Below, piece by piece: positions 984 through 18,477 of a stretch of 27,631 bases of DNA. Within the stretch, counting starts at the first letter, position 1. Each line of letters opens with the position of its first letter. The position numbers and the translations under genes were made by a program. The notes below the pieces were generated by a model. It saw nothing but the letters and a program-made list of their open reading frames with translations. It was not told the DNA's origin and did no database searches. Source of the DNA: a virus; IMG/VR virus record IMGVR_UViG_3300009169_000078, positions 1-27,631 of that record, one strand, 5' to 3'.

Positions 984-1298
984 ATGACTAATCTGCTTAG
1001 AAGACAACGCATCAAGCCGGCGCGGGATACCTCCTCCGTCGAGTCACAGATAATACACGCTTACATCGAGCGTAGCGTCCCCGACAAACACAAGATCGCT
1101 ACCGAGCGGGCGCTGCTGGGGCAGATACCCCGTTCAACCGCCATACGGGTCAAGTGCCTGCAGTGCTGCAACTACGAGCGCGAAACGATTAAGCAGTGCG
1201 CGGTGCTCACTTGCGCGCTGTTCCCCGTGCGCCCCTACCAGGACAAGGCCGCAGGCGCTGAAGAGGAGGCCGACGGCGATGACAACCAAGAAGAATGA
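984..1298 (+). CDS. Small Cys-motif phage protein (104 aa)
   Basis: This hypothetical protein has a central cysteine cluster: C58-x2-C61-C62 followed by C72-x4-C77, in the context VKCLQCCNYERE and TCALFPVRPY. Similar short proteins with a KCLxCC...C...CxL.P.R pattern are common next to phage replication genes and may bind zinc; no activity is known to me. The C-terminus is very acidic (EEEADGDDNQEE). The last 20 bases overlap the start of the primase-helicase gene, implying translational coupling. No good Shine-Dalgarno lies before the ATG at 984. Treat it as a probable zinc-binding accessory protein of the replication operon, with function unknown. Confidence 0.7.
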   Translation: MTNLLRRQRIKPARDTSSVESQIIHAYIERSVPDKHKIATERALLGQIPRSTAIRVKCLQCCNYERETIKQCAVLTCALFPVRPYQDKAAGAEEEADGDDNQEE

Positions 1299-3402
1299 GC
1301 TGACCGTGGTGGGCAAGGGGCCAACCCCGCTTGACTACGCGCTGGCCTACGCACAGCGGGGTTGGGCGGTGCTGCCGGTGTGGTCAGTGGACGCCAACGG
1401 CCAGTGCCGCTGCGGACGGCCTAACAGCGAGAAGGGCCACAAGGCCGGCAAGCATCCGCACTCCGAGCTGGCCCCGCATGGGCACCATGACGCGACCACG
1501 AGCGAGGACGTTATCCGCGAGTGGTGGGCTACTGACCCCGACGCAGGCATTGGAGTCTCCCTCTACGACTCCGGACTGCTGGCGCTAGACATTGACCCAC
1601 GCAACGGCGGACGGGAGGCTCTGGACGCCATAGAGGCAGAACACGGGGTGTTGCATAGCGACTGCACCGCGACTACGCAGGGCGGGGGTGAGCACCGGCT
1701 GTTTACCGCCGACCCCGAGATGACCTACCCCGCGACGCTGGGTGAGGGGCTTGACCTGAAGCATCATGGCTACATATGCGTCGCCCCGACGCTCGGCCCC
1801 ACGGGGGACTACAAGTGGGAGGCGGGCCGCTCCCCCCTGTCAAAGAGCCACCCCGCCCAGCCCTCACCCCTGCCCTCGTTGATTGCCAGCCGCGCCCGAG
1901 CGCCGGTGAACTTCAGCCTGACGGAGCGGGGCGGGGTGCCGGTGGCTACGGCGCAGACGTTTGATGACTTGCGCAGTGCGCTTAAGAACGTAGACGCCGA
2001 TGACTATGCTACATGGGTCAACGTGGGTATGGTGCTCAAACCCTACGGCGAGAACGGTTACAAGGTCTGGACCGAGTGGGCCGCCACCAGTGACAAGTTT
2101 GACGCCGCCGCCCAGCGCCGGAAGTGGGACCGCGACCTGAGCACCCCGCACTCGATTACGTACAGGTCGATATTCCGCATGGCGATTGACAACGGCTGGG
2201 CGGGTAATCACGCGCCGGTTAAGAGCGCGGCGACTGGCCAGGGCACTGAGGCTCACCCTCTGAGCCTGAGCCGTGCGCAGGAGTCCGGTGCGAGCGCGGT
2301 GACGGTGTTTGAGTACTTGTATGATGACTTCATGTCAACCGGCGTCAACGTGATTGCCGGCGCTCCAGGGGTGGGCAAGACCACGCTCGTAGTCCCGCTG
2401 GCGCTGGCCACTGCGCACCTGTGCCCTGCGGACTACATTATGAAGCCCGCCGTGCGCCGCAACGTCATCATCATTACGGAGTCGGTGGTGCAGGTTCAGC
2501 GGGTCATTTACTCGCTGCACTCATGGGGCTGCTCAGGGCACCGCGCCGGTGACTTTGAGGAGCGCGTGAGGGTCATCAGCGCGCAGCGGCTTGACCCCCT
2601 CATAGTCGCTCAAGTCGCTGACGAGTACCGAGACTGGACCGTTGACAACCCCAAGGCGGACGGCTCAATGTTTAAAGCGCTGCCGCTGGTCGTGTTTGAC
2701 ACCGCCAACGCCGTGTTCGACCTCGAGAATGAGAACGACAATGCGGAGGTGGGGCGGGCAATGGCGCTCACGAAGCAGCATTTTGCAGCCTTCCCCGTCA
2801 TCATCGTAGCCCACGCGGCAAAGGCCAATGGGATGATGGAGACCGACCAGCTCAGCCCCCGTGGCGCGGGCGCTTGGACCGGCGACGCTCAGGGGGTGTA
2901 CACGGTATTCAAAGACGGCGACCCCGAGGACTCCCCCCGCGTGCTCAAGGCGGTCAAGGTGCGGTTCCCGCTCCGCTACCCCGAGCTGACCTTTGACCTC
3001 GTCAGCCACAAGGAGCGGCATAACGACGTACTGGGCTATCCCGTGGACATGTGGTTCAGCCACTCCATCGCCCGTCCACTGGCCGGCGGGGAGCGCCTGC
3101 AGATGCGCGAAGACCGTAAGGAGGCTAAGGAGCAGGAGAGCTGGTCAAAGCTCTGCGACGAGCTGATGGACCTCATCCGTCGGGACGCTGGCCGAGGCCG
3201 GTCACACTACGAGCGGCTGCCGGTGGCTCAGGGTGGGGTCAAGGCCAGCCAGGAGCGCAAAGAGCGCGCCCTCACCTCATTGCTCAACGACGGCAGCGTC
3301 GAACGCATCGAGCTTGAGACCCCCAAAGGCCGCGCCAACCACTACCTGCGGGTGAACGAGGAAGTTGCCGCAGCGGTTGAGAAAGGCCGGTTCGGCGTAT
3401 GA
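1279..3402 (+). CDS. Fused primase-polymerase / RepA-like helicase (707 aa)
   Basis: Three domains are readable. Residues about 15-200 form a bifunctional DNA primase/polymerase (Prim-Pol) domain: RGWAVLPV opening, CRCG at 43-46, catalytic LALDIDPRNGG with D104 and D106, then GGGEHRLF and the LDLKHHGYICVAPT strand. Residues about 228-300 match a PriCT_2-type primase C-terminal module (DDLRSALKNVDADDYATWVNVG). Residues about 350-600 are a RepA/AAA_25-like P-loop ATPase: Walker A GAPGVGKTT at 361-369, Walker B LVVFDTAN around D474, and VIIVAHAAKA at 508 followed by RGAGAWTGDA. The remaining tail (to 707) looks helical and winged-helix-like. It should synthesise primers and unwind DNA at the phage fork in one polypeptide. 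The start overlaps the upstream gene by 20 bases. The stop lies directly beside the repeat array at 3410-3655, a plasmid-like arrangement. Confidence 0.92.
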   Translation: MTTKKNELTVVGKGPTPLDYALAYAQRGWAVLPVWSVDANGQCRCGRPNSEKGHKAGKHPHSELAPHGHHDATTSEDVIREWWATDPDAGIGVSLYDSGLLALDIDPRNGGREALDAIEAEHGVLHSDCTATTQGGGEHRLFTADPEMTYPATLGEGLDLKHHGYICVAPTLGPTGDYKWEAGRSPLSKSHPAQPSPLPSLIASRARAPVNFSLTERGGVPVATAQTFDDLRSALKNVDADDYATWVNVGMVLKPYGENGYKVWTEWAATSDKFDAAAQRRKWDRDLSTPHSITYRSIFRMAIDNGWAGNHAPVKSAATGQGTEAHPLSLSRAQESGASAVTVFEYLYDDFMSTGVNVIAGAPGVGKTTLVVPLALATAHLCPADYIMKPAVRRNVIIITESVVQVQRVIYSLHSWGCSGHRAGDFEERVRVISAQRLDPLIVAQVADEYRDWTVDNPKADGSMFKALPLVVFDTANAVFDLENENDNAEVGRAMALTKQHFAAFPVIIVAHAAKANGMMETDQLSPRGAGAWTGDAQGVYTVFKDGDPEDSPRVLKAVKVRFPLRYPELTFDLVSHKERHNDVLGYPVDMWFSHSIARPLAGGERLQMREDRKEAKEQESWSKLCDELMDLIRRDAGRGRSHYERLPVAQGGVKASQERKERALTSLLNDGSVERIELETPKGRANHYLRVNEEVAAAVEKGRFGV

Positions 3403-3404
3403 AG

Positions 3405-3472
3405 TTCTCAATCGTTCGGTTTAATCGTGTGGGTAATCGTTCGAACGATTACGCCGAACGAACGATTGAGAA
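3405..3472. repeat. Nested inverted repeats with a perfect 20-bp palindrome
   Basis: The outer arms are TTCTCAATCGTTCG at 3405-3418 and its exact reverse complement at 3459-3472 (14 bp). Between them lies the perfect palindrome GTAATCGTTCGAACGATTAC at 3433-3452. The centre therefore joins two AATCGTTCG half-sites head to head, the classical form of a site for a dimeric DNA-binding protein or a symmetric cleavage site. It begins 3 bases after the primase stop codon. Confidence 0.85.
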
Positions 3473-3655
3473 TTCGCCCCGTTCAAAAACGACTCGACGG
3501 ACGGAGGAGAGGGCTGTTCAGCCTCTCTCCGTAGTCGGTCTGAGTGGTTCAAAGTTAATCGTTCGGTTTAATCGTTCGGTCACTTTTAAGCCTTTGCTGT
3601 TCCCCCTATGAAAGTAATCGTTCGTTCGGTCCCCCTCTCGAAGAGCCGAACGATT
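3410..3655. repeat. Eight-copy AATCGTTCG repeat array
   Basis: Exact copies on the plus strand start at 3410, 3435, 3557, 3570 and 3616. Exact minus-strand copies (CGAACGATT) start at 3442, 3459 and 3647. A degraded copy AATCGTGTG starts at 3423. Copies at 3557 and 3570 belong to a perfect 13-bp tandem repeat (TTAATCGTTCGGT at 3555-3567 and 3568-3580). The 13-mer GTTAATCGTTCGG at 3554-3566 recurs inverted at 3646-3658. Spacing and orientation are irregular, which rules out a CRISPR and fits iterons or protein-binding half-sites. I saw no other exact copy elsewhere in the window by eye. Confidence 0.9.
3501..3532 (+). terminator. Hairpin, possible terminator or structured origin element
   Basis: ACGGAGGAGAGGGCT (3501-3515) pairs with AGCCTCTCTCCGT (3520-3532) around a GTTC loop, with two single-G bulges in the left arm. 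The stem is strong, but no T-run follows, so it is not a textbook intrinsic terminator. It might end the replication transcript with help from a factor, or be part of the origin or packaging structure. Confidence 0.45.
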
Positions 3656-3668
3656 AACCAACCTGAGG

Positions 3669-3674
3669 TATAAT
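3669..3674 (+). promoter_or_regulatory. Putative -10 box (TATAAT) before the small terminase gene
   Basis: A perfect TATAAT sits 7 bases before the ATG at 3682. No convincing -35 hexamer exists at 16-18 bases upstream; that position is occupied by the inverted repeat copy CCGAACGATTAAC (3646-3658), so an activator or repressor bound there would control it. Initiation 6-8 bases downstream would start the RNA at or next to the ATG, giving a leaderless message. The only Shine-Dalgarno candidate (GAGG at 3665-3668) is 13 bases from the ATG. Confidence 0.45.
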
Positions 3675-3681
3675 CTGCACC

Positions 3682-4290
3682 ATGGCTACAAAAAACACCC
3701 CCGCCGCTTCTCCTACGCAGCAGGCCGCACTGGCCGCAAAGCGCCCCACCCCCCGTGAACGCGAGGCGGTGTTTACCGACCTGTGCACCCTGCTTGAGCA
3801 AGGTATGTCTCTGACGGAGGCCTGCAAGTTGGTGCCCGATGCGCCGACTCCGGCGGGCGTTCTGGGCTGGACAAATAAAGACCCCGAGGGGCACGGCAAA
3901 CGGTACGCGCTCGCGCGCGAGACCGGCTACAACCTGCTCGGCGATGAGATAAGCCGAGTTGCTGCAGAGACCCACGCAATCGTCTACGTACAGAAGTGTG
4001 ACGCCGACGGCAAGCCCCTGCGGGATGCGCAAGGCGAACCGCTGCTCGAGAAGGCGCTGGCCCCCTTGAGCGCAGACGTCATGGCGCACAAGCGGCTGAT
4101 GGTGGATACGCTGAAGTGGAAGCTGTCAAAGATGCTGCCCAAGATGTACGGCGACAAGGTGACGACCGAGCACACAGGCCCAGGCGGCGGCCCCGTGCAG
4201 ATTGCCGCGCTGGACCTGAAGAACCTCTCCGACGCCGAGCTGGCACAGATGCAGGAGATGCTCAGCAGGGCGGGCGGCGGTGCCGCATGA
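3682..4290 (+). CDS. terS: Terminase small subunit
   Basis: The 202-aa protein has an Ala/Pro-rich N-terminus, a helical region about residues 24-70 (PREREAVFTDLCTLLEQGMSLTEA) that looks like a helix-turn-helix with a skip motif, and the hallmark of one phage small-terminase family, LKWKLSKMLPKMYGDK followed by TEHTGPGGGPVQ (about 146-172). It should recognise phage DNA and hand it to the large subunit for packaging. The gene lies directly downstream of the repeat array, which is where cos/pac recognition sites often lie in other phages. Its stop overlaps an ATG at 4287. The terL gene follows after one small gene, supporting the assignment. Confidence 0.82.
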   Translation: MATKNTPAASPTQQAALAAKRPTPREREAVFTDLCTLLEQGMSLTEACKLVPDAPTPAGVLGWTNKDPEGHGKRYALARETGYNLLGDEISRVAAETHAIVYVQKCDADGKPLRDAQGEPLLEKALAPLSADVMAHKRLMVDTLKWKLSKMLPKMYGDKVTTEHTGPGGGPVQIAALDLKNLSDAELAQMQEMLSRAGGGAA

Positions 4291-12476: not shown

Positions 12477-12495
12477 GTAAAAGGAGAAAATGAAA

Positions 12496-12639
12496 ATGGC
12501 TACTAACGGAAAATCCACAGGCACCGTGCCGATGAACACCGGCGCGGTTAAGCAGAAACACCGCCTCGCCGCCGGCCTGCCGGTCACGGGTCAAACCCTG
12601 CCCGCCGCCCCCAACCTCGGACCTAAGACGCCGGCGTGA
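12496..12639 (+). CDS. Very small hypothetical protein (47 aa)
   Basis: AAGGAG at 12481-12486 is 9 bases before ATG 12496 and only 3 before the alternative in-frame ATG at 12490, so I prefer 12496. The product, beginning MATNGKSTGTVPMNTG, is Pro/Gly/Thr-rich and probably disordered, with no domain. Its TGA overlaps the GTG start of the next gene (GTGA). The strong ribosome site and tight packing favour a real gene. Function is unknown. Confidence 0.55.
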   Translation: MATNGKSTGTVPMNTGAVKQKHRLAAGLPVTGQTLPAAPNLGPKTPA

Positions 12640-12833
12640 GCTTTGAAGCCGCGCTACTGAACCGCCTGAAGACCGCGCAAACCGAGTTTGCTGTGGAGTC
12701 TTTGAAGCGCCCCCAAAATCGCGACACTTTTGAGTATGGGTTCCGCGTGGGCACCGTAAACGGTTACGAGGCCGCTATCAACATACTTCTTTCAATCTTA
12801 GATGAGGAACGCAATAGTGACAACAACCTATGA
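12636..12833 (+). CDS. Small hypothetical podovirus-type protein (65 aa)
   Basis: The GTG start at 12636 overlaps the preceding TGA by 3 bases, giving coupled translation. The product (LNRLKTAQTEFAVESLKRP, then TFEYGFRVGTVNGYEAAI) resembles short conserved proteins found beside portal genes in podoviruses. It is helical, neutral and without membrane segments. Function is unknown. The last 17 bases overlap the GroES-like gene if that begins at its GTG. Confidence 0.65.
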   Translation: MSFEAALLNRLKTAQTEFAVESLKRPQNRDTFEYGFRVGTVNGYEAAINILLSILDEERNSDNNL

Positions 12834-17975: not shown

Positions 17976-17988
17976 AGGAGCACATATC

Positions 17989-18384
17989 ATGGGTTGCACA
18001 TACGTTAAAGACTTTGACTTCAAGAAGACCGCCGGCGACATGTCCGCCAAGAAAAGCGGCTACTGCGACGGCGGTATGGCGAAAAAGACCGGCTACGCTC
18101 AAGGTGGCGTGGTCGGCAAAGAGGCCGCTAAGGTGGCCGTGCACAAGCATGAAAAGTCCATGCACAAGGGCGAGCCGATGACCAAGCTCGCCAAGGGTGG
18201 CCCCGCCACCCCCAAGCGCGAGATGATGACCAAGCGCGAGATGATGGAGACTCCGACGGTCCGCCGCGATGAGCTCATGCAGAAGAGCCGCCTGCAAGCG
18301 CCCGCGCGCCGCTCGGTGCCGGTGGCCCCGCAAGGCCCGCTCATCCCGATGAAAACAGGCGGTAAAGTCGCCAAAAAGTGCTGA
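17989..18384 (+). CDS. Lys/Gly-rich protein with repeated xGG motifs (131 aa)
   Basis: The frame is open upstream, but GAAGGAG at 17974-17980, 8 bases before ATG 17989, fixes the start. The protein is very basic and contains GYCDGGMAKK, GYAQGGVVGKEA, KLAKGGPATPK and a terminal KTGGKVAKKC, a spaced set of GG motifs also found in the 267-aa and 864-aa proteins. A tandem KREMMTKREMM is encoded by a 16-base direct repeat (18213-18228 and 18231-18246). No globular domain is visible; it is probably disordered and may bind DNA or another virion protein. Function is unknown. Confidence 0.65.
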   Translation: MGCTYVKDFDFKKTAGDMSAKKSGYCDGGMAKKTGYAQGGVVGKEAAKVAVHKHEKSMHKGEPMTKLAKGGPATPKREMMTKREMMETPTVRRDELMQKSRLQAPARRSVPVAPQGPLIPMKTGGKVAKKC

Positions 18385-18409
18385 ATTAGGCGACGGCGCT
18401 TTCTTCAAC

Positions 18410-18477
18410 TATAATTCCTCTCACACACTCGGGGCGCGCTGACACAGCGGCCATCCTGACTACTACTCGGAGTTGGT
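18410..18477 (+). promoter_or_regulatory. Putative promoter and structured leader, copy 1
   Basis: TATAATT at 18410 is followed by GGGCGC, a mini-hairpin GCTG-ACA-CAGC (18438-18448) and a CTACTAC...CGGAGT ribosome region with GGAG 5 bases from ATG 18478. The same ordered elements occur before the gene at 26577. The -35 region is poor (TTAGGC, 18 bases upstream). The conservation of both box and leader argues for a real transcription start or regulated leader rather than chance. Confidence 0.5.

Follow-up and report, generated by a model that had tools for sequence, protein, structure and literature searches.

A putative replication origin and its candidate winged-helix reader in a group of uncultured tailed phages

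The region between the replication and terminase genes

The window analyzed here, the complete stretch of 27,631 bases of the IMG/VR record IMGVR_UViG_3300009169_000078, belongs to a tailed phage with genes for an Sf6-like small terminase subunit (TerS), the large subunit (TerL) and a portal protein. Positions 1279 to 3402 of the plus strand encode a replication protein in which Pfam profiles (PF09250, PF08707, PF13481) identify a Prim-Pol domain (amino acids 21-199), a PriCT_2 domain (233-302) and a RecA-type helicase of the AAA_25 family (344-517), in agreement with a sequence-only reading of this DNA that had described primase and helicase as one polypeptide. A winged helix (wHTH) is predicted at about amino acids 639-693 (coding positions 3193-3357, plus strand), with a candidate recognition helix at about amino acids 657-671. 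The AlphaFold2 (AF2) model of the C-terminal 140 amino acids, built from 32 sequences, has a mean pLDDT of 83 and shows a helix-helix-wing topology after a long helix (helices at 74-79 and 91-104 and wing at 107-125 of the piece), and a Foldseek search with this tail retrieved generic winged-helix proteins (RTP, MarR) with probability near 1 and E-values of 0.02 or worse. The full-length model (pLDDT 70, pTM 0.37) is too weak for claims on domain arrangement.

The stop codon of this gene (3400-3402) is followed by a gene-free stretch of 279 bp (3403-3681) that ends at terS (3682-4290, plus strand; PF20901). It had been taken for the only large gene-free stretch; under the ORFs accepted in our analysis, on which such sizes depend, two others exceed it, at 17976-18477 (502 bp) and 12477-12801 (325 bp). 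As had been reported, AATCGTTCG is present in eight exact copies on both strands, all of them within 3410-3655, with starts at 3410, 3435, 3557, 3570 and 3616 on the plus strand and at 3442, 3459 and 3647 on the minus strand, so that seven bases separate the stop codon from the first copy. There is no further copy in the 27,631 bases, where 0.17 would be expected by chance, and none of 100 shuffles reached eight; a variant ninth copy, AATCGTGTG, lies at 3424-3432. The repeats thus form what is typical of iteron-type origins, namely a non-coding cluster of several short repeats close to a replication gene. An ORF of 70 amino acids (3399-3611) overlaps the array and is unlikely to be the cause of the repeats because the iterons occur in all three frames.

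The iterons fall into two clusters, each with copies on both strands, that flank a hairpin. The left cluster (3410-3467) contains four copies of AATCGTTCG, two per orientation, together with AATCGTGTG, and its middle pair overlaps to form a 16-bp palindrome; the right cluster (3557-3655) contains the other four, the final two being inverted and 31 bp apart. The GC content is 0.42-0.47 in the clusters versus about 0.6-0.7 around them, with no distinct AT-rich block. The sequence-only reading, which had recognized the repeats, missed both the conserved hairpin and a TATAAT box before terS. This box (3669-3674, plus strand) is, judging from its sequence, the probable -10 element of a terminase (late) promoter; it has no good -35 partner, and scanning for the consensus gave no complete sigma-70 promoter. 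Only seven bases separate the TATAAT from the start codon of terS (3669-3684), and the spacing is similar in two related contigs (G002 and G004); the late transcript could therefore have almost no leader.

The hairpin (about 3490-3547, plus strand) consists of an outer stem, a 3x3 internal loop, an inner stem with one bulged T and a small loop. The fold z-score of the region is -5.9 as RNA and -5.5 as DNA. In an alignment of 22 sequences (A4, for which G038 was cut by hand and G033, G017 and L023 were left out), 13 of the 19 pairs changed on both sides and 89.7% of the cells pair; the covariation score is 0.385, whereas shuffles score 0.155 and slid controls no higher than 0.17. Only 5 of about 375 paired cells are G-U, one column with a shifting bulge excluded, and the rarity of such pairs weakly favors DNA over RNA. 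The very stable predicted fold and the covariation would be in line with a structured RNA, that is, a transcript-processing or terminator element in which the repeats are merely stems. Yet there is no T-run terminator, Rfam yields no match (a single miRNA model scores far below the gathering threshold), G-U pairs are few and, as described below, the iterons track a DNA-binding domain, so that we consider this interpretation extremely improbable.

Conservation and genomic position of the array

Relatives were collected by a primase scan, which gave 15 related viral contigs, and by a scan with the hairpin pattern, which gave 20 stretches. The array element is present, with its geometry (including that of the right cluster) preserved, in over 30 contigs of related uncultured phages, with 5-14 sites per contig against shuffle means of at most 0.28. 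The layout is the same in nearly all of them: left iterons, hairpin, right iterons, a -10-like box and terS. The sequence-only reading had proposed a search for the same gap and the same 9-mer in related phages; array and hairpin are conserved, but the 9-mer itself varies. No real match was obtained when the hairpin pattern was searched in bacterial genomes or the array DNA in named phages, and the cultured Roseobacter phage CRP-902 (TerL 44%) showed no such array upstream of terS. Distant AAA_25-type (RecA-helicase) genes with a repeat array at the 3' end occur in Brachymonas chironomi and in a beta-proteobacterial MAG. One record, G028 (IMGVR_UViG_3300047121_000347, 101,830 bases), holds two different copies of primase plus array, in the regions of 30-50 kb and 85-102 kb, and is possibly two phage genomes joined.

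The proximity of array and primase, emphasized in the sequence-only reading, turned out not to be the conserved relation; what is conserved is the position before the terminase genes. In four contigs (L010-L013), primase and array are two to three kilobases apart, with unrelated genes in between, and in five others (G018, G028b, G031, G032, G038) the primase is 5-9 kb away from the array, mostly on the opposite strand; in all nine the array has kept its place immediately before the terminase genes. The same holds for every complete case, and in G031 and G047 the terminase module that follows the array is of another family. Two side features were noted. In a low-GC clade, another inverted pair of iterons, AATCGTTCGTTCTATTAAGAAATAGACCGAACGAACGATT, is found where the portal gene ends (L015:7790-7829, L018:11406-11445, L022:17162-17201, G013:5855-5892), possibly a second binding site or a transcript hairpin. 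In L070 (4343-4984) and L071 (718-1359), array and terS are separated by a gene that, on visual inspection, probably encodes a GIY-YIG endonuclease. The start of the latter gene lies inside the array region, and it may be mobile or encode an origin-directed nuclease, for which Odn of ICP1 (PMC8263062) offers a comparison.

Repetition as such is a poor guide: an 8-mer with four or more copies, taken alone, is not a specific sign, since such 8-mers also occur in 15 of the 37 TerL loci that lack this primase, in some cases as part of other arrays. The TerL relatives that encode this primase carry the array, in some cases in variant form, and the TerS homologs found without this primase lack it. 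Where the same TerL is accompanied by a P4-alpha-like or SF3 replication protein, the repeats behind the replication gene are different ones, such as AGGTTCGA directly behind a PriCT_2/DUF5906 protein (L098:4757-5077) and TGGCACAGGAT directly behind a Toprim/D5/Pox_D5 protein (L138:3269-3613).

An origin is not required to stay before the terminase module, and the fact that the array always does so, even when the primase is distant, counts against the origin reading. This constant neighborhood, unexplained by an origin alone, is the best argument that the region is instead a late-gene switch at which the replication protein, bound to the iterons, represses or activates the terminase promoter at 3669-3674 and thereby couples replication to late expression. 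Such a switch would fit the position upstream of unrelated terminases (G031, G047) or far from the primase, the -10-like box found before the next gene in 13 of the 15 contigs checked, and the second iteron pair behind the portal gene in the low-GC clade. It would, however, need neither a covarying hairpin nor 8-14 sites on both sides of it, and arrays also lie directly behind the replication genes of phages with other replication proteins. We therefore regard a switch in place of an origin as unlikely, although it is the strongest of the alternatives and possibly an added function.

Iteron variants follow the winged-helix domain

The sequence-only reading had held that loss of the repeats from a close relative that keeps the primase-helicase would speak against an origin. 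One such relative, L009 (primase 91% and TerL 93% identical), lacks AATCGTTCG but has an unchanged hairpin and five replacement iterons, four exact copies of AACCGTGTG and one of AATCGTGTG; the objection thus applies to it only superficially. Other variants among the TerL relatives are ACCCGTTA (L070, L071), ATCAAGTG (L142) and ACCCGGCG (L023), and further scans added AATCGTGTG in L171, CCTAAATAAG in G037, TGATCAGTC in G017, and CCGGGCTTTCG and CCGGGCATTCG in G030 and G033. In most of these genomes a hairpin of other sequence persists.

Mantel tests relating iteron distance to the distances of individual protein parts across 30 genomes single out the wHTH (r 0.64; p 0.0005, a value that, like the other Mantel p-values, is indicative because label permutation corrects shared ancestry only in part). 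This correlation amounts to 0.51 given the helicase and 0.61 given TerS, and is stable without L023, without the carriers of stand-alone wHTH proteins and after dereplication. Iteron distance is not correlated with Prim-Pol distance (r -0.05), and the correlations with the helicase (r -0.15) and TerS (r 0.14, p 0.17) are lost once the wHTH is taken into account. A pair of phages illustrates the pattern: L142 and G047 differ in their Prim-Pol domains and terminases, yet share the iteron ATCAAGTG and the residues RGSQ where the wHTH recognition helix starts; in L101, whose full-length protein is 82% identical to that of L142, these residues are GYSQ and the iteron is ATCGTTCG. As is the case for iteron-type origins, the repeats thus follow the DNA-binding domain of the candidate initiator, with exceptions in L009, G018 and the pair G030/G033.

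In the former two, the iterons are shifted and the wHTH is little changed, and both encode a stand-alone wHTH. A profile search identified such paralogs adjoining the array, between it and terS, in six genomes (L009, L200, G017, G018, G024, G029), among them L009:4964-5350, L200:2421-2840, G018:51909-52310, G024:19413-19997 (minus strand) and G029:14345-14896 (minus strand), the last two comprising tandem domains. Deviating iterons are found in L009, G018, L200 and G017, and the paralog may take over or modulate iteron recognition in these genomes. G030 and G033 differ in concert at one iteron base and have near-identical wHTHs; a search for a wHTH paralog in these two found none, and no cause of the iteron change is visible in the protein. 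The earlier statement that the window holds no iteron-binding initiator is probably wrong, the best candidate being the wHTH at the C-terminus of the primase-helicase itself.

The same comparisons bear on TerS, which was considered as an alternative reader of the iterons. It does not track them once the wHTH is controlled for, and identical iterons occur with unrelated TerS proteins, the ATCGTTCG motif standing beside an unrelated TerS and TerL in G031; TerS is probably not the reader. In P1 pac and lambda cosB, repeats surround a central element, and this resemblance, along with the constant position before terS, would suit a packaging site (pac or cos) bound by TerS. Against such a site stand the results just given and the TerS homologs that have no array without this primase. 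Furthermore, contigs run through the array, three of them are circularly closed elsewhere and none ends at the hairpin; the motif read by TerS and the DNA ends or packaging start that mark such a site are not indicated by these results. A packaging site thus appears very unlikely.

A putative origin and its relation to known systems

Taken together, the conserved array and hairpin, the tracking of the replication protein by the iterons and the different arrays that accompany other replication proteins agree with the origin proposed in the sequence-only reading. The check suggested there, cumulative GC skew, gave it no support: computed on 8 and then 18 contigs, the skew tracks the coding strand, has its minima kilobases away from the array and is uninformative. 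DnaA boxes are at chance level; such boxes are not required. From these sequence comparisons we infer that 3403-3681 is probably a replication origin, with the wHTH tail of the Prim-Pol/PriCT_2/RecA-helicase protein as its putative initiator.

At such an origin, several copies of the protein would bind the iterons through their winged helices and open the local duplex, the clusters having about 42-47% GC as compared with about 60-70% around them. The RecA-type ring would then load and unwind the DNA, and the hairpin, exposed in one strand, would mark the place where Prim-Pol primes, as RepB' does at the IncQ ssi hairpins. The models for this presumed priming role are the RSF1010 ssi hairpins and the pRN1 stem-loop (PMC4234260). 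The latter is essential, and similar loops have been proposed in some phages (PMC4234260). Bound beside the TATAAT box, the protein may in addition set the timing of the late terminase promoter. A single polypeptide that reads the iterons, opens the DNA and primes would do the jobs of the separate RepC, RepA and RepB' of RSF1010. Tentatively, the system could be a one-protein version of IncQ in which iteron reading falls to the wHTH, DNA opening to the ring and priming at the hairpin to the protein's own Prim-Pol; in some lineages a split-off wHTH would take over or modulate the reading and so free the origin code to change.

The phage element resembles the logic of P4 alpha, SaPI Rep/Cch2, pRN1 and IncQ but fails a defining feature of each. 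The P4 alpha helicase belongs to SF3, and that of SaPI Rep and Cch2 is of another (AAA+) type than the phage helicase. With P4 alpha, SaPI Rep and pRN1 ORF904 the phage protein shares a C-terminal winged-helix domain, predicted by AF2 and Foldseek; it lacks the SF3 helicase that would place it among them, Pfam identifying AAA_25, a RecA-type ATPase. P4 alpha likewise is a single polypeptide comprising a primase, a helicase and a C-terminal winged helix, with repeats as origin (PMC4234260), but its primase is of the Toprim type, whereas the phage has a Prim-Pol (AEP), a RecA-type AAA_25 helicase and a conserved hairpin between the iteron clusters. In SaPI Rep and SCCmec Cch2, a C-terminal domain reads iterons and the origin lies directly behind the gene (PMC7581432); these proteins, unlike that of the phage, have no fused Prim-Pol. 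The pRN1 protein ORF904 joins Prim-Pol, helicase and C-terminal winged helix, with a stem-loop 3' of the gene (PMC4234260), but contains an SF3 helicase, and the pRN1 origin is without iterons. In the phages, too, a conserved stem-loop lies 3' of the Prim-Pol gene, although kilobases away from it in some relatives. The IncQ origin, RSF1010 oriV, has iterons, the RepA helicase and a primase that starts at the short stem-loops ssiA and ssiB (PMC4234260); there, three separate proteins (RepA, RepB' and RepC) and two ssi hairpins stand in place of the one fused polypeptide, seen by Pfam, and the one hairpin of the phage. In the PLE satellites of Vibrio cholerae, the DNA-binding domain of the initiator RepA and the origin iterons covary, and modules are exchanged (PMC8263062), but this initiator is of the RepA_N type and is not a fused primase-helicase.

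Origins have rarely been located in lytic phages known from metagenomes only. Comparison here links an origin-like element with the protein that probably reads it, and the phage group concerned has hundreds of TerL relatives in IMG/VR. The natural specificity switches among ATCGTTCG, ATCAAGTG, AACGGGT, CCGGGCTTTCG, CCTAAATAAG and ACCCGGCG provide a protein-DNA code that can be tested in vitro. The fusion of a primase, a RecA-type helicase and an origin reader suggests a solution beyond those of the SF3-based P4, SaPI and pRN1 systems.
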